Below, piece after piece: positions 10,403-62,608 of a stretch of DNA of 64,000 nucleotides (position 1 is the stretch's first letter; each line of letters opens with the position of its first letter). The DNA is from Streptomyces sp. NBC_01264 (GTDB lineage Bacteria; Actinomycetota; Actinomycetes; Streptomycetales; Streptomycetaceae). A program made the position numbers and the translations under genes. The notes beneath the pieces are model-generated. The model was given only the letters and a program-made list of their open reading frames with translations, ran no database searches and was not told where the DNA came from. The stretch covers positions 4,154,001-4,218,000 of the forward strand of contig NZ_JAPEOX010000001.1 of assembly GCF_026340675.1 (NCBI RefSeq), written 5' to 3'.

Positions 10403-12166
10403 TCAGCCCGTCGTGAAGGAGACGAAGTTGTAGTACGGGTCGGTGGACACCGTGGACTTGCTGTGCACGGCGTTGCGGGCGATGAAGAGCTTCCCGTTGC
10501 CGTAGCGGAACTCGCCGGAGTCCGGCAGGAACTGGGTCTCGGCGCGCTGCGATTCCTTGTCCGCCGGGTTCTGCATGAGCAGGGTCTCCTTCATCGTCTT
10601 GCCGTCGATGGAGACGACCTGGCCGCCGCCGTCGTAGGGCGGGACCTTGTAGGCGATGAGGTTGGAGCCGTCCATGCGCAGCGGGTAGATCGTGTAGCGC
10701 TCGCCGGCGTCGGCGCGGTCGGCGGTCAGCTTGCCGGTCTCCAGGTCGAAGGAGACGATCTCGTTGGTGCGGCCGTAGTCGGTCGTACCCCCCTTGTGCT
10801 CCTCGGTCGGCAGGTAGAGCTTGCCGTTTCCGACGACCATGTTGGTGCAGTCCTCGACCCTGAGGCCGCACTCGGGGTTGTAGTTGCCCGAGGTGAGCGG
10901 GATGCGCGCCTTGAGCTGGCCCCCGTCGTCGAGGACGAAGAGGTCGCTGACGCCGATGGCGTTCTTGGAGGTGTGGTTGACGTCCGCCGAGACGATCAGC
11001 GGCTTGCTGGAGACGATCCCGGCGTCCTCCAGACCCGGGGGGAGCTTGTACGTGGACTTCGGTGCGCCGGTGACCGGGTCGAGCGCCTGCGCGGACATCG
11101 CGTAGTTCCCGTACCGGCCGCAGCGGCGGATCACGGCGAGGGCGGGGCCGCCGCCGTAGCCGAGGTCCTGGCAGTCGTCCGCGTCGATCTTGGGCTTCCA
11201 CAGGGGCTTGCCGTCGGCGAGGTTCCAGGCGGCGCCGCCGTACAGTCCGCCCGCAGCCACGGTCTGGCCGCTGACGGTCACCTCCTTGAACTCGATCGGC
11301 TTGTCGCCGCCGCCCTGGGTCTTGGTGGTGGCCTTCCACAGGAGCTTGCCGGCGTTCAGGTCGATGACGCCCACCTGGTTGCACGGCTGGTACTTCTTCT
11401 CGGCCGTCGGCAGGGCCTCGTCGAAGAGGATCGCCGTCTTGTTGTCCGAGACCCAGCGGCTCGCGGCGCAGACGTTGGCGCCGAGCGGGACCTCCCACTT
11501 CTTGGCGCCGTCGGCCACGTTGTAGCCGACGACCTTGCCCATGTCGGACTTGGCGTAGGTGGTGTCGGTGAGCCAGGAGCCGGGGATCTGGACGATCTCC
11601 TTCGACTCCGGCATCGGGAGGTTGACCAGCGTCTTCGACTTGGTCTTGGCCGGTACCTTCTCGGTGCCGCCGCCCTTCGCCTTGTCGCCGTCGGTGCCGC
11701 CGTCGGCCACGGGCTGGTTGCCGGAGCCCTTGTCCTCGCCGGAGACGTACCAGAAGCCGCCGCCGATGATGAGGACGATGGCCAGGAGGGCCGCGCCAAC
11801 GATCATCAGCTGGGTGCGGATCTCGTTGCCGCCGCTGCCGGCGGGCGCGGCCGGGCTCTGGGCCGCGTACATGGGCGCGGTGACGGGCTGCGGCTGCTGC
11901 GGGTAGCCGTAGGGCTCCTGCGGATAGCCGTACGAGGCCTGCCCCGCGGGCGCCCCGGCGGGGACCGTCGGCGGCACGGCCGGGGGCGCGGGCGGCATGG
12001 CCGGGGGCGGCGGGGGGCCGGCCGGCATGGCCGGGGGCACCGGCGGGGGCCCGCCGAACCCTCCGGGCGGCTGGTCCTTGGGCGCGCCGTAGCCGCCCGG
12101 CGGCTGGTCCTGCGGCGCGCCGAAGCCGCCGGACGGCGGCTGGCTGGGGGGCGGCGGGGTACTCAT
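10403..12166 (-). CDS. Membrane-anchored PQQ-like beta-propeller protein (copy 1)
   Basis: A 587-aa protein with three parts: an N-terminal ~110-residue tail rich in Pro, Gly, Gln and Tyr with repeats such as DQPPGGYGAPKDQPPGGFG, one transmembrane helix (LMIVGAALLAIVLIIGGGFW, about residues 117-138), and a long extracytoplasmic region of repeated beta-strand blades with Cys residues. The topology is Pro-rich tail inside, propeller outside. No PQQ-binding enzyme signature is seen, so a binding or scaffold role is more likely than dehydrogenase activity. It follows a paralogue in the same direction 73 nt upstream. Function is unknown. Confidence 0.8.
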   Translation of the reverse strand: MSTPPPPSQPPSGGFGAPQDQPPGGYGAPKDQPPGGFGGPPPVPPAMPAGPPPPPAMPPAPPAVPPTVPAGAPAGQASYGYPQEPYGYPQQPQPVTAPMYAAQSPAAPAGSGGNEIRTQLMIVGAALLAIVLIIGGGFWYVSGEDKGSGNQPVADGGTDGDKAKGGGTEKVPAKTKSKTLVNLPMPESKEIVQIPGSWLTDTTYAKSDMGKVVGYNVADGAKKWEVPLGANVCAASRWVSDNKTAILFDEALPTAEKKYQPCNQVGVIDLNAGKLLWKATTKTQGGGDKPIEFKEVTVSGQTVAAGGLYGGAAWNLADGKPLWKPKIDADDCQDLGYGGGPALAVIRRCGRYGNYAMSAQALDPVTGAPKSTYKLPPGLEDAGIVSSKPLIVSADVNHTSKNAIGVSDLFVLDDGGQLKARIPLTSGNYNPECGLRVEDCTNMVVGNGKLYLPTEEHKGGTTDYGRTNEIVSFDLETGKLTADRADAGERYTIYPLRMDGSNLIAYKVPPYDGGGQVVSIDGKTMKETLLMQNPADKESQRAETQFLPDSGEFRYGNGKLFIARNAVHSKSTVSTDPYYNFVSFTTG

Positions 12167-49560: not shown

Positions 49561-50904
49561 TCAGCCGAGCAGGACCACTTCCAGCTCGGCCCCGGGCTCC
49601 ACCGAGGTCACGTCCTCCGGCACGACCATCAGCGAGTCGGCGTGCGCCAGCGCGGCGATCAGGTGCGAGCCCGCTCCGCCGACCGGGCTGACCGTGCCGC
49701 TGACCGCGTCGTACTTGCCGCGCAGGAACTGGCGGCGGCCGGCCGGGGAGCCGATCGCCTTGTCCGCCTCGAGCACCGCGCGCACGCTCGGCCGGCTGAC
49801 CTCGGAGGCGGGCAGGCCCATGAGGGCGCGGATCGCGGGGCGCACGAACAGCTCGAAGGAGACGTAGGAGGAGACCGGGTTGCCGGGCAGGGCCAGCAGC
49901 GGGGTGTGGTCGGGGCCGATGGTGCCGAAGCCCTGGGGCTTGCCGGGCTGCATGGCGAGCTTGCGGAAGTCGATCCCCGCGCCGTCGACCTCGTCGTCCC
50001 CGGTGGCGACGGCCGTCAGGGCCTCCTTGACCACGTCGTACGCGCCGACGCTGACCCCGCCCGTGGTGACGAGCAGGTCGGCCCGGATGAGCTGGTCCTC
50101 GATGGTGGAGCGCAGGGTGTCGGCGTCGTCGGCGACGGCTCCGACCCGGTAGGCGATGGCCCCGGCGTCCCGCGCGGCGGCGGCCAGGGCGAAGCTGTTG
50201 GAGTCGTAGATCGTGCCGGGCGCCAGGGCCTCACCGGGCTGGACCAGCTCGCTGCCGGTGGACAGGACGACCACGCGCGGGCGCGGACGCACCCGTACGG
50301 TGCCCCGCCCGATGGCGGCCAGCAGGGCGATCTGCGGCGGCCCGAGGACCGTGCCCGTGGCGAGCGCGAGGTCCCCGGCCTGTACGTCGCTGCCGCGCGA
50401 GCGGACGTGCGCACGCGCCTCCGCCGGGCGGTGGACCCGTACCTCGCCCGCGGCGCCCTCGGGCGCCTCGCTGGCGGGGGTCATCCCGGAGGCGGCTCCG
50501 CCTCCCGTGCCGCCGTCGGTCCACTCGACCGGTACGACGGCTTCCGCACCGGGGGGCAGCGGGGCGCCGGTCATGATGCGGGCGGCCTGGCCGGGGCCCA
50601 CGGTCGGCAGCTCTCCGCTGCCGGCCGCCACGTCCCCGATAACCGTCAGCACCGCCGGGAACTCCTCGCTGGCCCCCTGGACATCGGCGGTCCGGACGGC
50701 GTACCCGTCCATCGAGCTGTTGTCGAAGGGCGGCAGGGCGACGGGCACGGTGACGTCCTCGACCAGGACGCAGCCCTGGGCGTCCAGCAGCTGGAGCTCG
50801 ATGGGCTCCAGCGGCCGGACGGTGCCGAGGACGTCCGCCAGGTGCTCGTCCACCGACCAGAGGCGCTGGGAGCCTGTGTCCTGCGGTGCGTCGGGCTTGC
50901 TCAA
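49561..50904 (-). CDS. MoeA/gephyrin-like protein (molybdenum insertion and/or Glp division factor)
   Basis: A 447-aa MoeA: domain II/III with LPPFDNSSMDGYAVR, RIMTGAPLPPGAEAVVPVE, the MPT-binding DLLVTTGGVSVGAYD, and LALPGNPVSSYVSFELF, followed by the C-terminal domain IV. A ~25-residue Gly/Ala/Ser-rich insert follows VPVEWTDGG. The TTG at 50904, 4 nt after the galU stop, begins the homology; no better codon exists. Its position next to galU and near a SepX/GlpR-like gene matches Glp, the gephyrin-like division protein of corynebacteria, while moaC and moaB next door fit cofactor synthesis. It may do either or both. Confidence 0.9.
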   Translation of the reverse strand: MSKPDAPQDTGSQRLWSVDEHLADVLGTVRPLEPIELQLLDAQGCVLVEDVTVPVALPPFDNSSMDGYAVRTADVQGASEEFPAVLTVIGDVAAGSGELPTVGPGQAARIMTGAPLPPGAEAVVPVEWTDGGTGGGAASGMTPASEAPEGAAGEVRVHRPAEARAHVRSRGSDVQAGDLALATGTVLGPPQIALLAAIGRGTVRVRPRPRVVVLSTGSELVQPGEALAPGTIYDSNSFALAAAARDAGAIAYRVGAVADDADTLRSTIEDQLIRADLLVTTGGVSVGAYDVVKEALTAVATGDDEVDGAGIDFRKLAMQPGKPQGFGTIGPDHTPLLALPGNPVSSYVSFELFVRPAIRALMGLPASEVSRPSVRAVLEADKAIGSPAGRRQFLRGKYDAVSGTVSPVGGAGSHLIAALAHADSLMVVPEDVTSVEPGAELEVVLLG

Positions 50905-50908
50905 GGTC

Positions 50909-51811
50909 CTACATCTCCTCCGTGACGTAATGGTGAAGCCAGGCGCGGAACTCCGGGCCCAGGTCCTCACGCTCGCACGCGAGTCGGACGATGGCCCGCA
51001 GGTAGTCCCCGCGGTCCCCGGTGTCGTAGCGCCGGCCCCGGAAGACCACGCCGTGCACCGGGCCGCCGACGGTCTCGTCCGCGGCCAGCTTCTGCAGGGC
51101 GTCGGTCAGCTGGATCTCATTGCCGCGGCCCGGCTCGGTCTCACGCAGTATGCCGAAGATCGCCGGATCGAGTACGTACCGTCCGATGACCGCGTAATTG
51201 CTGGGCGCGTCCGCGGCGTCCGGCTTCTCCACGAGACCGGTGATGCGGACCACGTCCGCCTCGCCGGTGGGCTCGACCGCGGCGCAGCCGTAGAGGTGCA
51301 CCTGCGAGGGGTCGACCTCCATCAGCGCGACGACGGTGCCGCCGGCCCTCTGCTGGACCTCCGTCATCCGGCGCAGCAGCGGGTCGCGGGGGTCGATGAG
51401 GTCGTCGCCGAGGAGGACGGCGAAGGGCTCGTCGCCGACGTGCGGCTCGGCGCACAGCACGGCGTGGCCCAGGCCCCGGGGGTCGCCCTGGCGGACGTAG
51501 TGCATGGTGGCCAGGTCGCTGGACTCCTGGACCTTCTTGAGCTTGTCGTCGTCGCCCTTGGCGATGAGCGCCGACTCCAGCTCGTAGTTGCGGTCGAAGT
51601 GGTCTTCCAGGGCGCGCTTGTTACGACCCGTGATCATGAGGATGTCGTCGAGGCCGGCCGACACGGCCTCCTCGACGACGTATTGAATGGCCGGCTTGTC
51701 CACCACGGGAAGCATTTCCTTGGGTGTCGCCTTGGTCGCGGGAAGGAACCGAGTGCCGAGGCCCGCGGCCGGGATGACGGCCTTCTTGATCACGGGGTGC
51801 AACTGAGTCAT
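50909..51811 (-). CDS. galU: UTP-glucose-1-phosphate uridylyltransferase
   Basis: Makes UDP-glucose for glycogen-like polymers, envelope glycans and, with GalE, UDP-galactose. The 300-aa product shows AVIPAAGLGTRFLPATKATP (UTP site), LLGDDLIDP, VEKPDAADAPSNYAVIGRYVL and the C-terminal RRYDTGDRGDYLRAIV. ATG 51811 has a leaderless -10 element 7 nt upstream. It is the first gene of the galU-moeA-moaC-moaB-rimJ group and is divergent from the 5-formyl-THF cyclo-ligase gene. Confidence 0.95.
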   Translation of the reverse strand: MTQLHPVIKKAVIPAAGLGTRFLPATKATPKEMLPVVDKPAIQYVVEEAVSAGLDDILMITGRNKRALEDHFDRNYELESALIAKGDDDKLKKVQESSDLATMHYVRQGDPRGLGHAVLCAEPHVGDEPFAVLLGDDLIDPRDPLLRRMTEVQQRAGGTVVALMEVDPSQVHLYGCAAVEPTGEADVVRITGLVEKPDAADAPSNYAVIGRYVLDPAIFGILRETEPGRGNEIQLTDALQKLAADETVGGPVHGVVFRGRRYDTGDRGDYLRAIVRLACEREDLGPEFRAWLHHYVTEEM

Positions 51812-51824
51812 GGGCGGAACGATA
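51812..51824 (-). promoter_or_regulatory. Leaderless promoter of galU
   Basis: TATCGT (minus strand, 51824-51819) stands 7 nt before the ATG at 51811, and no ribosome-binding site is visible. Confidence 0.55.
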
Positions 51825-51891
51825 GTCGCTCCTGATGAGGGCCACGTGAGTTTCAGATGAACATGATCAGGTATACCCCGATAGAAAGTGA

Positions 51892-51903
51892 TACGAGCCA
51901 ACC
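51892..51903 (+). promoter_or_regulatory. Possible leaderless promoter of the 5-FCL gene
   Basis: TACGAG (51892-51897), one base off the TANNNT consensus, lies 6 nt before the GTG at 51904; no ribosome-binding site is apparent. Confidence 0.35.
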
Positions 51904-52524
51904 GTGACAGAGAACCAGCCGTCGAGGGCCAAGGCGGACTTGCGCCGGGAACTCCTCGCGGCCCGCCGCGCCTTGTCCGCCGACACTCTGCGCACGGCGG
52001 CCGGCGCCCTCGCCCGCACCGCCTTGCGACTACCCGAACTCAGCTCCGCCCACACCGTGGCCGCCTACGTCTCCATCGGCTCCGAACCCGGCACCCGCGA
52101 GCTGCTCGACGCCCTCCGGGCGGCCGGCGCCCGCGTGCTGCTGCCCGTCCTGCTGCCCGACAACGACCTCGACTGGGCCGCGTACGAAGGCCCGGAGAGC
52201 CTGGCCGAGGCCGCGCACCTGGGGAAGATGCGGCTCCTGGAGCCCGCCGGTCCCCGTCTCGGGCCGGACGCGGTGACCGGCGCCGACGCCGTCCTGCTGC
52301 CCGGACTGGCCGTGGACCGGCGGGGGATGCGGCTCGGACGGGGCGGAGGCTCGTACGACCGGGTCCTGGAGCGGCTGGAGCGCGCCGGGGCGGATCCCGC
52401 GCTGGTCGTGCTCCTCTACGACGACGAGGTGGTCGCGCGGGTCCCGGAGGAACCGCACGACCACCCCGTACGCGCGGTGGCCACCCCGTCGGGGGTGCTC
52501 CGCTTCAGCTCTGACGCCCTATAG
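51904..52524 (+). CDS. 5-formyltetrahydrofolate cyclo-ligase
   Basis: Converts 5-formyl-THF to 5,10-methenyl-THF with ATP, recycling a folate storage form. The 206-aa product has SRAKADLRRELLAARRAL with the basic ATP site, AAYVSIGSEPGT, and the conserved DAVLLPGLAVDRRGMRLGRGGGSYDR motif. The GTG at 51904 starts the gene. It is divergent from galU, as in mycobacteria (Rv0992c/Rv0993). Its TAG stop lies in the first unit of a 9-nt tandem repeat. Confidence 0.95.
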   Translation: MTENQPSRAKADLRRELLAARRALSADTLRTAAGALARTALRLPELSSAHTVAAYVSIGSEPGTRELLDALRAAGARVLLPVLLPDNDLDWAAYEGPESLAEAAHLGKMRLLEPAGPRLGPDAVTGADAVLLPGLAVDRRGMRLGRGGGSYDRVLERLERAGADPALVVLLYDDEVVARVPEEPHDHPVRAVATPSGVLRFSSDAL

Positions 52525-57367: not shown

Positions 57368-57464
57368 CGCATTCACCCCTGTTTAGGCGGGGCTTGAATG
57401 CGAAGTTCCAGTTAATCGCAGGTGAAGACACGCCCTGTAGCCCGAATCACAGGGCGTATCGGGC
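57368..57464 (+). promoter_or_regulatory. Structured region between the antiporter and MFS genes (in the 365-nt gap 57330-57694)
   Basis: Hairpin A: CGCATTCA (57368-57375) pairs with TGAATGCG (57395-57402), with CCCC/GGGG inside; likely the antiporter terminator. Hairpin B: ACGCCCTGT (57430-57438) pairs with ACAGGGCGT (57449-57457). The loop of B contains GCCCGA (57440-57445), complementary to TCGGGC (57459-57464), so a pseudoknot can form. A -10-like TACGAT follows at 57475-57480, so the MFS transcript may begin beyond the structures. No gene is supported in the gap. Confidence 0.5.
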
Positions 57465-57694
57465 GATCTGCCTGTACGATTAAGGAACAACACATCGAAC
57501 CAACTCTGCCTGACGCAGAGCTGGCGCGACCGCAAAGCGGCCGTGGCACCCTCCCGCAGTGGGCGCCCAGGTATCACTCGGTTCTGCGCAAGAGGACAGC
57601 TCTCGGGCCTCCCACATGTACGGGTGTCACCGCTCACGAAGCGGGGCATCGTCCGCAGACGGGGAGTTCTACCAGGCAGCGGAAAGGCCAGGCC

Positions 57695-59044
57695 GTGACA
57701 TCCGCGGTCACGACCGACAAGTCCGCCCAGTCCACCCGACCCGGCTACGGGCAGCTCCTGCGCACGCCCGGCGCCCTCGGCTTCGTTCTCCCGGGATTCG
57801 CCGCGCGACTCCCCTTCGGCATGCTGACGATCAGCATCCTGCTGCTCGTCCAGCACACCACCGGTTCCTACGGAAGCGCCGGCATCGTCGCCGCCTTCAC
57901 CGGTGTCTCCATGGCCGTGTTCGCCCCGGTCATGGGCAAGCTCATCGACCGCCACGGCCAGAGCGCCGTCCTGGTCCCGGTGGCCCTCGTACACGCCACC
58001 GCCGTCAGCTCCCTGGTGGCGTTCGCGCTGCTGGGGGCGCCCGTCTGGGCGCTCGCACTGGCGGCCGTCCCCGCCGGTGCATCCGTCCCGCAGGTCGGAC
58101 CCATGGTCCGGTCCCGCTGGGCGGCCAAGCTCGAGGGCTCCCCGCTGCTGCCGACGGCCGCCGCGTTCGAGTCCGTCACCGACGAGTTCACCTTCGTCGT
58201 CGGCCCGGTGCTCGCCACCGCGCTGTGCACCGGCATCAACCCGGCGGCCGGTCTGGTCACCGAGGCCGCGCTGACCCTGATCGGCGGCCTGCTCTTCGCC
58301 GCCCAGCGCGCCACGCAGCCGGGGCCCGTCGCCCGCCCGGCGCACGGTGAGAAGCACGCCCCGGCCCTGTCGTTCCACGGCCTGCGCGTCCTGATCGTCG
58401 CCTTCATCGGCATCGGCGCCGTCTTCGGCGGCATGCAGGTCTCGCTCGCCGCCTTCACCGAGGAGATCGGCAACCCGGGAGCCAACGGTCTGCTCTACGG
58501 CGTCTTCGCCGCGGGCAACATGATCGCCGGCATCGCCTGCGGCGCCATCGCCTGGAAGATCGGCCCGCGCCGCCGCCTGATCCTCGGCTACATCGGCCTC
58601 ACCGCGGCCGCCTCGGTCCTGTGGGCCGCGAACTCGATGATCGTGCTGGGTGCGCTCGGCCTGGTCGTCGGACTGTGCATCGCCCCGGCGCTGATCACCG
58701 GATACACCATGATCGAGAAGCTGATCCCGGCTGCCTCGCGGACCGAGGCCTTCACCTGGCTCACCGGTGGCGTCGCCTTCGGGCAGGCCGGCGCCGTGAT
58801 CCTGGCCGGCCGTCTGACGGACGCGCACGGGTCCTCGTACGGGTTCCTCGTGCCGATGGTGGCCACCGCGCTCGCGCTGACCATCCTGCTGGCGCTGCGT
58901 GCGAAGCTGGCCCCGAAGGCCCCGAGCCGGATCGTCAGCTCGTCCAAGCCGGCCGTCCAGACCGCTCAGACCACCTCCGCGGCACCCGCCGCGGGTGTGA
59001 ACGAGCGTGGTCTGGGTCACCGCGTGCCGGTGACGGTGGACTGA
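57695..59044 (+). CDS. MFS transporter
   Basis: A 449-aa major facilitator with about 12 helices; the loop 2-3 signature is PVMGKLIDRHGQSAVL, and the equivalent in the second half is AWKIGPRRRLILGY. The N-terminal ~25 residues are polar and cytoplasmic; the C-terminal tail is Ala/Ser/Thr-rich. The GTG at 57695 follows GGAAAGG with 7-nt spacing. The large hydrophobic content and no specificity motif leave the substrate unknown; the type is a drug/metabolite exporter. A ~365-nt structured leader region precedes it. Confidence 0.9.
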   Translation: MTSAVTTDKSAQSTRPGYGQLLRTPGALGFVLPGFAARLPFGMLTISILLLVQHTTGSYGSAGIVAAFTGVSMAVFAPVMGKLIDRHGQSAVLVPVALVHATAVSSLVAFALLGAPVWALALAAVPAGASVPQVGPMVRSRWAAKLEGSPLLPTAAAFESVTDEFTFVVGPVLATALCTGINPAAGLVTEAALTLIGGLLFAAQRATQPGPVARPAHGEKHAPALSFHGLRVLIVAFIGIGAVFGGMQVSLAAFTEEIGNPGANGLLYGVFAAGNMIAGIACGAIAWKIGPRRRLILGYIGLTAAASVLWAANSMIVLGALGLVVGLCIAPALITGYTMIEKLIPAASRTEAFTWLTGGVAFGQAGAVILAGRLTDAHGSSYGFLVPMVATALALTILLALRAKLAPKAPSRIVSSSKPAVQTAQTTSAAPAAGVNERGLGHRVPVTVD

Positions 59045-59050
59045 TCCGCC

Positions 59051-59076
59051 GGAATACGTCACCATGGAGCGTCGTT
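59051..59076 (+). promoter_or_regulatory. Sigma-R/SigH-type promoter of the FmdB/Ruc-like gene
   Basis: GGAAT (59051-59055), an 18-nt spacer and GTT (59074-59076) match exactly the GGAAT-N18/19-GTT consensus of Streptomyces sigma-R (thiol-oxidative stress). It lies 36 nt before the start codon and its -10 part overlaps a CIRCE element. Confidence 0.75.
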
Positions 59077-59101
59077 AGCACTCATTGAGTCAGAGTGCCA
59101 G
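59075..59101 (+). promoter_or_regulatory. CIRCE element (HrcA operator)
   Basis: TTAGCACTC (59075-59083), exactly 9 nt, then GAGTGCCAG (59093-59101). The left arm is a perfect CIRCE half-site, the right arm matches 7 of 9. It covers the expected transcription start of the downstream gene, where HrcA would repress in the absence of heat stress. Confidence 0.85.
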
Positions 59102-59111
59102 GAGGAAATTC

Positions 59112-59420
59112 GTGCCGACCTACCAGTACCAGTGCACCGAGTGCGGTGAGGGCCTTGAGGCCGTGCAGAAGTTCACCGATGACGCACTGACCGTGTGCCC
59201 GAGCTGTGACGGACGCCTGAAGAAGGTGTTCTCCGCGGTCGGCATCGTCTTCAAGGGCTCCGGTTTCTACCGGAACGACAGCCGTGGCGCTTCGTCGAGC
59301 AGCACCCCTGCCTCGAAGCCCGCGTCGACGCCCGCCGCCGCCCCGGCCGCGTCGTCCTCGACGACGTCTTCGTCCTCGACCTCGACCTCCTCGTCGTCGT
59401 CGAGCACGTCCGCCGCCTGA
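59112..59420 (+). CDS. FmdB/Ruc-type zinc-ribbon protein (redox-regulated chaperone homologue)
   Basis: A 102-aa protein: an FmdB-type zinc ribbon at the N-terminus (PTYQYQCTECGEGLE, then VCPSCDGRLKKVFS, four Cys), the conserved IVFKGSGFYRND, and a ~45-residue Ser/Thr/Ala/Pro-rich disordered tail. This plan and the neighbourhood match M. tuberculosis Rv0991c (Ruc), whose Cys oxidation releases zinc and turns on chaperone holdase activity. GTG 59112 follows AGGAGGAAA. The overlapping sigma-R promoter and CIRCE element predict induction by disulfide stress and by heat, which fits such a chaperone. Confidence 0.9.
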   Translation: MPTYQYQCTECGEGLEAVQKFTDDALTVCPSCDGRLKKVFSAVGIVFKGSGFYRNDSRGASSSSTPASKPASTPAAAPAASSSTTSSSSTSTSSSSSSTSAA

Positions 59421-62029: not shown

Positions 62030-62092
62030 AAACTGCCGTAGCTTTCGGAACCGTTGGCTCCGTGTTCGGCAGATACGAAGAAAGGCTCAGTA

Positions 62093-62608
62093 GTGAGCGA
62101 GAAGAAGAAGGAGAGCGTCCTGGCGGGCTTCAAGGCCTTCCTGATGCGCGGCAACGTGGTGGACCTGGCGGTCGCCGTGGTCATCGGCGCCGCATTCACG
62201 AACATCGTGAACTCCGTGGTGAAGGGGATCATCGGCCCCCTGGTCGGCGCCATCGGGACGAAGAACCTGGACGCCTACACCTCGTGCCTGAAGGGTCCTT
62301 GCAGCGTCGACGCGAAGGGCGAGCCGGTCGGCGTGAACATCATGTGGGGCTCGGTGCTGAACGCGGCGCTCAGCTTCCTGATCACCGCCGCGGTCGTCTA
62401 CTTCCTGATGGTCCTGCCGATGGCGAAGTACCTCGCCAAGGTGGAGCAGCGCCGCAAGGCGAAGGAAGGCGTCCAGGAGACCATGGAGATCACCGAGCTG
62501 GTGGTCCTCAAGGAGATCCGCGACGCCCTGGTCGCCCAGCGCGGTGCGAACGGCGGGAACGGCGGGGCCCAGCCCGGCCAGTACGGCGACCCCGGGCCCC
62601 GGCTCTAG
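62093..62608 (+). CDS. mscL: Large-conductance mechanosensitive channel
   Basis: A 171-aa MscL that opens under membrane tension during hypo-osmotic shock. TM1 is VVDLAVAVVIGAAFTNIVNSVVKGIIGP with the gate residues, TM2 is AALSFLITAAVVYFLMVLPM, and the C-terminal helix follows. The periplasmic loop has an insertion with two Cys (SCLKGPCS), which could form a disulfide and modulate gating, and the C-terminus has an extra Gly/Asn-rich tail, explaining the length over the usual ~135-150 aa. GTG 62093 follows AGAAAGG. Confidence 0.96.
   Translation: MSEKKKESVLAGFKAFLMRGNVVDLAVAVVIGAAFTNIVNSVVKGIIGPLVGAIGTKNLDAYTSCLKGPCSVDAKGEPVGVNIMWGSVLNAALSFLITAAVVYFLMVLPMAKYLAKVEQRRKAKEGVQETMEITELVVLKEIRDALVAQRGANGGNGGAQPGQYGDPGPRL

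Follow-up and report, generated by a model that had tools for sequence, protein, structure and literature searches.

A putative SigR-type promoter overlapped by a CIRCE element before a ruc-type gene of Streptomyces sp. NBC_01264

Layout of the locus

The window, by which we mean the whole 64,000-nucleotide stretch analysed here, carries a short gene of the FmdB zinc-ribbon family, preceded by two promoter-like pairs, an inverted repeat and a ribosome-binding site. The features used below are as follows (positions in the window).

49561..50970, minus strand: moeA-like gene (PF03453, PF00994, PF03454), syntenic marker
50909..51901, minus strand: nucleotidyl transferase gene, galU-like (PF00483), syntenic marker
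51904..52524, plus strand: 5-formyltetrahydrofolate cyclo-ligase gene (PF01812), syntenic marker
57422..59044, plus strand: MFS transporter gene upstream of the FmdB-type gene (longest open reading frame, start provisional)
59037..59042, plus strand: TGGACT, -35-like element of a second, probably HrdB-type, promoter; overlaps the MFS stop codon by one base
59051..59055, plus strand: GGAAT, SigR-type -35-like element (pattern match; conserved in Streptomycetaceae)
59060..59065, plus strand: CACCAT, where relatives have CANNAT; -10-like part of the second pair, within the SigR spacer, at conserved columns
59074..59076, plus strand: GTT, SigR-type -10-like element, 18 bases after GGAAT; its TT forms CIRCE bases 1-2
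59075..59101, no strand assigned: CIRCE-type inverted repeat TTAGCACTC-N9-GAGTGCCAG, probable HrcA operator (0 of 100 shuffles)
59100..59105, plus strand: ribosome-binding site AGGAGG, read from the sequence; shares the last two CIRCE bases
59112..59420, plus strand: FmdB-family zinc-ribbon gene, orthologue of M. tuberculosis ruc (102 aa, GTG start; PF09723 and TIGR02605 above cut-offs)
62054..62608, plus strand: mscL (PF01741), syntenic marker

The MFS stop codon ends six bases before GGAAT, and the SigR-type element and the CIRCE overlap by two bases. An earlier note on this DNA had placed GGAAT-N18-GTT at 59051-59076 and a CIRCE at 59075-59101, both directly before an FmdB/Ruc-type gene at 59112, and the sequence bears out these positions, the spacing and the gene start (GTG at 59112). 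The repeat has two mismatches in 18 arm bases to the consensus scored here, TTAGCACTC-N9-GAGTGCTAA, which was taken from that note. The second promoter-like pair was missed there.

With up to three mismatches allowed, the CIRCE occurs once in the 64-kb window and in none of 100 shuffles, and a genome-wide search found five, distributed over three units (groEL, groES-groEL and the FmdB-type gene; reversed control, 0). On its own the SigR pattern is weak: the window has two matches, shuffles give 0.49, and 9 of 100 shuffles also contained at least two; genome-wide it gave 143 matches against 18 for the reversed control. Its other match in the window, GGAAT-N19-GTT at 10530-10556 on the minus strand, was rejected as a promoter because it lies within a same-strand open reading frame, and is probably a chance occurrence. 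For the match before the FmdB-type gene, chance was rejected on the conservation of the composite element across genomes. PMC4803200 gives the SigH consensus as GGAAYR-N17-GTT, equivalent to GGAAY-N18-GTT whose spacer begins with a purine; read as GGAATA-N17-GTT, the match before the FmdB-type gene fits it.

The zinc-ribbon cysteines of the window protein are C8, C11, C29 and C32 (CXXC-N17-CXXC), and in each of the 184 orthologues from the class, Streptomycetaceae and mycobacterial-family sets the cysteines likewise number exactly four, arranged as two CXXC pairs. The C-terminal tail exceeds 15 residues in 176/184 orthologues (among these, median 50 residues, 48% Ser) and is hydrophilic by composition, as in Ruc. 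At a mycobacterial-type locus (L287), a 5-formyltetrahydrofolate cyclo-ligase gene (PF01812) directly precedes the FmdB-type gene, and the neighbourhood of Rv0991c is presumably similar (5-formyltetrahydrofolate cyclo-ligase, galU-like, moeA and mscL genes). The same four cysteines, the Ser-rich tail and the similar neighbourhood identify the window gene as the orthologue of M. tuberculosis ruc (Rv0991c). A sequence search of the PDB found no relative of the window protein, and the predicted structure is of low confidence (mean pLDDT 56). Hsp33 belongs to a different protein family from Ruc. It resembles the Ruc type in having four zinc-binding cysteines and in being activated by oxidation (PMC7448276).

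Conservation of the CIRCE and of the two promoter-like pairs

The composite pattern GGAAT-N16..20-GTTRGCACTC-N9-GAGTGC was found in 189 of 199 Streptomyces genomes, at one site per matching genome and with no match in reversed controls, a count that describes related genomes of one genus and not independent events. In all 30 of the 189 loci that were inspected, the gene starts 12-15 bases past GAGTGC. No copy of the gene was found in three of the ten genomes lacking the composite (assembly completeness 79, 82 and 99%). The seven that carry the gene all retain a CIRCE with at most two mismatches; three have an extra T between GTT and the repeat, and four are without an exact -35 (one GTAAT, one GGAAAT and two with a replaced upstream region). 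In two Streptomyces loci (L121, L123) the sequence upstream of the CIRCE is replaced, with GGAAT and TGGAC lost and TAGTAT or TACCAT kept together with the CIRCE.

Since a pattern search selects what it seeks, loci were also drawn by protein. The gene is present in 60/61 Streptomycetaceae genomes (17 genera), and the CIRCE precedes it in 60/60, with 17 of the 18 arm columns invariant. Exact GGAAT-N18-GTT occurs in 45/60 of these loci (shuffle mean, 0.04); the 15 others comprise seven in g64, which have GAAAT for GGAAT, one in g72, and seven in g59 and g62, where the upstream region is different and has no GGAAT. Spacings of 16, 17, 19 or 20 between GGAAT and GTT were found at no locus of the Streptomycetaceae, class and mycobacterial-family sets. 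Column conservation was tabulated for 53 Streptomycetaceae loci, leaving out the seven of g59 and g62: no variation was seen in SigR columns -22 to -20 and 0 to 1, and columns -24, -23 and -1 are kept in 52, 46 and 52 loci, respectively. Named Streptomyces records have copies of the gene closely similar to that of the window. Among 19 named Streptomyces loci, all have the CIRCE and the second promoter-like pair, and 17 have the SigR-type element with spacing 18.

The CIRCE loop (59084-59092) reads ATTGAGTCA in the window and ATTGAGTGA or ATCGAGTGA in many Streptomyces loci, where the GAGTG of the loop could pair with CACTC in an alternative, shorter stem. At one further locus (L115; G220, family f23), TTGGCACTCGACACCCGAGAGTGCCAG is followed by a near-identical CIRCE-like copy and the start of a third before the gene.

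The second pair, TGGAC-N18/19-YANNAT, is present in 60/60 Streptomycetaceae loci (shuffle mean of 0.16 for the wider N17-19 pattern); it was defined after the Streptomycetaceae alignments had been viewed, so this count is descriptive. It also lies near the CIRCE in 22 of the 72 CIRCE-bearing class loci outside Streptomycetaceae, and in 0/38 mycobacterial-family loci. Its -10-like columns -15, -14, -11 and -10 always read C, A, A and T in the 53 tabulated loci, and over all 60 they do so in 54, 53, 60 and 60, respectively. More broadly, the 53 loci agree throughout in the SigR spacer columns C-A-n-n-A-T-n-G-A, an invariant group that a SigR promoter alone would not demand; columns -18, -3 and -2 are kept in 52, 52 and 51. 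HrdB-type promoters have the consensus TTGACN-N16..18-TANNNT. TGGACT-N17-CACCAT differs from this in base 2 of the -35 and base 1 of the -10. The second pair is probably a housekeeping promoter reading the FmdB-type gene under the same HrcA repressor, an identity stated as probable because the match to the consensus is imperfect. In the window, TGGACT sits on the end of the MFS gene (GTG GAC TGA), and some of the TGGAC conservation may stem from coding constraint, since GTG-GAC-stop fits a shared protein end in many loci. The letters after TGGAC vary among genera (TATC, TTAT, TCCT), and the G+C-rich reading frames gave no clear separation.

In the class set the gene was found in 97/98 genomes, one match each. 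A CIRCE-like repeat with at most four mismatches lies upstream in 80/97 (at most three mismatches, 77/97; shuffles, 0), and GGAAT-N18-GTT in 16/97, of which eight are Streptomyces and six belong to mycobacterial family f4. Nocardia jejuensis (L087) and Nonomuraea cypriaca (L085) each have GGAAT-N18-GTT together with a CIRCE-like repeat of three mismatches. At the Catenulispora pinistramenti locus (L084), a CIRCE-like repeat (four mismatches) accompanies TGGAC/YANNAT, and no SigR-type site was found. Neither a SigR-type site nor a CIRCE-like repeat was found upstream of the gene at a Chloroflexi locus.

In the family taken as Mycobacteriaceae, 35/38 loci have a CIRCE-like repeat with at most four mismatches and 18/38 have GGAAT-N18-GTT (shuffle mean, 0.04), which adjoins or overlaps the CIRCE in 13 of the 18; in G345, G352 and G362 the distance from the start of GTT to the CIRCE is 18 to 23 bases. 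The genus of G239, taken as Mycobacterium, has a composite with its own spacing, found in 101/118 of its genomes, with reversed controls at 0. Two loci of this family, both members of g82 (L239, L282), place GGAAT in the CIRCE loop, followed 18 bases later by GTT, an arrangement in which the repressor would cover the -35 and not the -10.

With a CIRCE-like repeat ahead of the gene in 80/97 class genomes, HrcA control of the FmdB-type gene is predicted to be a widely shared, class-wide input, and the predicted sigma input differs by lineage and by offset. HrcA itself (PF01628) was searched for in 80 of the 97 class genomes, comprising all 17 without a CIRCE at the gene and 63 of the 80 with one, and was matched in 79/80. 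All 17 CIRCE-less genomes have a match and one of the 63 CIRCE-bearing genomes showed none; the presence of HrcA therefore does not predict a CIRCE at the gene. Six genomes of 1.3-1.4 Mb (G218, G234, G248, G259, G271 and G280, family f21) match only the C-terminal part of PF01628 (about 123-215), and in all six the FmdB-type gene has no CIRCE.

Regulators in the genome and the mycobacterial precedent

The genome encodes one HrcA (a single PF01628 match spanning the full model, 199.2 bits), an RsrA (TIGR03988, 101 bits; cut-off 62.5) and, directly before RsrA, a sigma factor matching TIGR02947 (SigH_actino, 359.9 bits; cut-off 251.55), whose gene is also preceded by GGAAT-N18-GTT. A SigR regulon list has reportedly been published for S. 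coelicolor. The groES-groEL and groEL units share the CIRCE operator with the FmdB-type gene and have two copies each, whereas the SigR-type site before the FmdB-type gene has no counterpart in the 350 bases examined at each groE unit. At groES, TTGACC-N18-TAGTCT has its -35 within the loop of the first CIRCE copy.

Upstream of clpB (L298, G000:C1:5284935-5284967) lies the HAIR element CTTGAGTGGAATAGACTCAAC with GGAAT in its loop and GTT 18 bases on, so that clpB of this genome has a putative SigR-type promoter overlapped by HAIR, the predicted HspR operator. HAIR elements are also present at dnaK and lon, where no SigR-type site was found. The HAIR pattern search gave more matches per strand in the reversed control (13) than in the true sequence (7), and use was therefore restricted to the sites with identified genes, namely dnaK, clpB and lon. 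Taken together, the arrangements at the ruc-type gene and at clpB would bring two repressor classes and SigR together at a holdase and a disaggregase.

In M. tuberculosis, HrcA is reported to repress four genes, three of the Hsp60/Hsp10 family and ruc (PMC7448276), a set of groE genes plus ruc like that of the CIRCE units here. The same report states that ruc is induced by SigH in heat, that the SigH and HrcA sites overlap upstream of ruc, suggesting competition, and that an hrcA mutant contains abundant Ruc, with a further rise on heating; a figure legend gives a second ruc transcription start 19 bases upstream (PMC7448276). SigH dependence of Rv0991c is given as 40.3-fold after heat (PMC4803200). 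Ruc is described as a zinc-ribbon protein with a disordered tail that binds zinc and forms disulfides (PMC7448276), and, according to a section heading of that report, M. tuberculosis does not require it to resist several oxidative stresses in vitro. The earlier note had called Rv0991c a chaperone activated by cysteine oxidation and a member of the HrcA regulon, and both statements agree with the gain of chaperone activity on oxidation and the HrcA repression reported in PMC7448276.

The orthologous genes are thus alike in having overlapping sites for HrcA and for a SigR/SigH-group sigma factor (PMC7448276; PMC4803200), but they differ in detail: GTT shares two CIRCE bases in Streptomyces and abuts the start of the repeat in the genus of G239 (taken as Mycobacterium), and the TGGAC/YANNAT pair is interleaved with the SigR-type element in Streptomyces and absent from the 38 mycobacterial-family loci. 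M. tuberculosis clpB offers a second parallel, a SigH promoter overlapped by an HspR site (PMC4803200). There too the operator of a heat-shock repressor covers a promoter read by a sigma factor of this group, although the repressor there is HspR at HAIR and at the window locus it would be HrcA at the CIRCE.

Two-input control by SigR and HrcA, as proposed in the earlier note, is supported by the presence of HrcA, RsrA and the sigma factor, by the conservation of the double element and by the Rv0991c precedent. That note had further assigned thiol stress to the sigma factor and heat to HrcA; so clean a split is doubtful because SigH acts after heat in M. tuberculosis, where its contribution was measured (PMC4803200). 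The two-input idea is also less new than the note suggests, because SigH and HrcA control of ruc has already been published for Mycobacterium (PMC7448276, PMC4803200). What goes beyond that precedent is the class-wide CIRCE, the lineage-variable sigma input, the second promoter pair and the SigR/HAIR overlap at clpB.

Proposed control of the ruc-type gene

We consider it very likely that the window holds the Streptomyces version of the control region of a Ruc-type redox chaperone gene, released by withdrawal of HrcA and driven by SigR. In unstressed cells HrcA bound to the CIRCE would cover the SigR -10 and the predicted start and keep expression low; as the CIRCE lies just downstream of the housekeeping-type promoter, HrcA would hold that promoter down too. 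Protein-damaging stress would withdraw HrcA (release), and thiol oxidation would free SigR from RsrA (drive). HrcA release alone would then raise expression and SigR would increase it further, in line with the behaviour reported for an hrcA mutant of M. tuberculosis without and with heat. Oxidation of its four zinc-binding cysteines would activate the protein made, which would then aid the Hsp70 machine in refolding clients. We infer that SigR, HrcA and the second promoter act in this way in Streptomyces sp. NBC_01264.

The working promoter could instead be TGGACT-N17-CACCAT under HrcA, with GGAAT and GTT incidental and heat, through HrcA, the single input. TGGAC-N18/19-YANNAT is indeed the more constant of the two pairs in Streptomycetaceae (60/60, against 45/60 for exact GGAAT-N18-GTT), it persists without GGAAT in g59 and g62, and it recurs near the CIRCE in 22 of the 72 CIRCE-bearing class loci outside that family. 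An incidental origin of GGAAT and GTT fits poorly, however, with columns conserved well above background in the 53 loci, with the single spacing of 18 in all three sets, and with the sigma dependence measured for the M. tuberculosis orthologue (PMC4803200), and we regard this alternative as unlikely.

It is similarly improbable that the FmdB-family protein has some role other than that of a chaperone. PF09723 and TIGR02605 describe only a zinc ribbon, and the PDB sequence search gave no relative, but orthology with Rv0991c is indicated by cysteines, tail and neighbourhood, the operator is shared with groE, and oxidised Rv0991c is reported to gain chaperone activity (PMC7448276). The idea that the CIRCE acts mainly as an mRNA hairpin beside the ribosome-binding site, and not as an HrcA operator, was rejected as most improbable: a second-promoter transcript would hold the entire repeat with its 6-bp stem, but the fold is no better than shuffles (z -0.70; 45/200 at least as stable), a SigR-promoter transcript would lack most of the left arm, the arm letters themselves are kept (17/18 columns invariant in 60/60 loci), and HrcA is reported to repress the orthologue (PMC7448276).

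Within the preferred reading, control by HrcA release and SigR drive, the geometry of the two pairs suggests a further step. The SigR -35 lies in the housekeeping spacer and the housekeeping -10 lies in the SigR spacer, so that the two polymerases would exclude each other and be shut off together. For the wider proposal that one HrcA operator gates two interleaved, mutually exclusive promoters, with HrcA as the core and a sigma input that has been repeatedly exchanged or moved across Actinomycetes, we see an even balance of likelihood. Its sigma variants would be the SigR type in Streptomycetaceae and in the mycobacterial family, at different offsets, TGGAC/YANNAT in several other families, and GGAAT in the CIRCE loop in g82. 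If this proposal is true, a coincidence switch for an oxidation-activated chaperone would have been assembled repeatedly.

The comparison would extend the published mycobacterial ruc circuit to Streptomyces, a genus that is safe and well developed for laboratory work, and suggests that HrcA control of the gene is widespread in Actinomycetes while its sigma input is evolvable. It also predicts that in this genome a Ruc-type holdase and ClpB are each under SigR and a heat-shock repressor, so that the way in which cells combine thiol stress and protein unfolding becomes testable with simple reporters.
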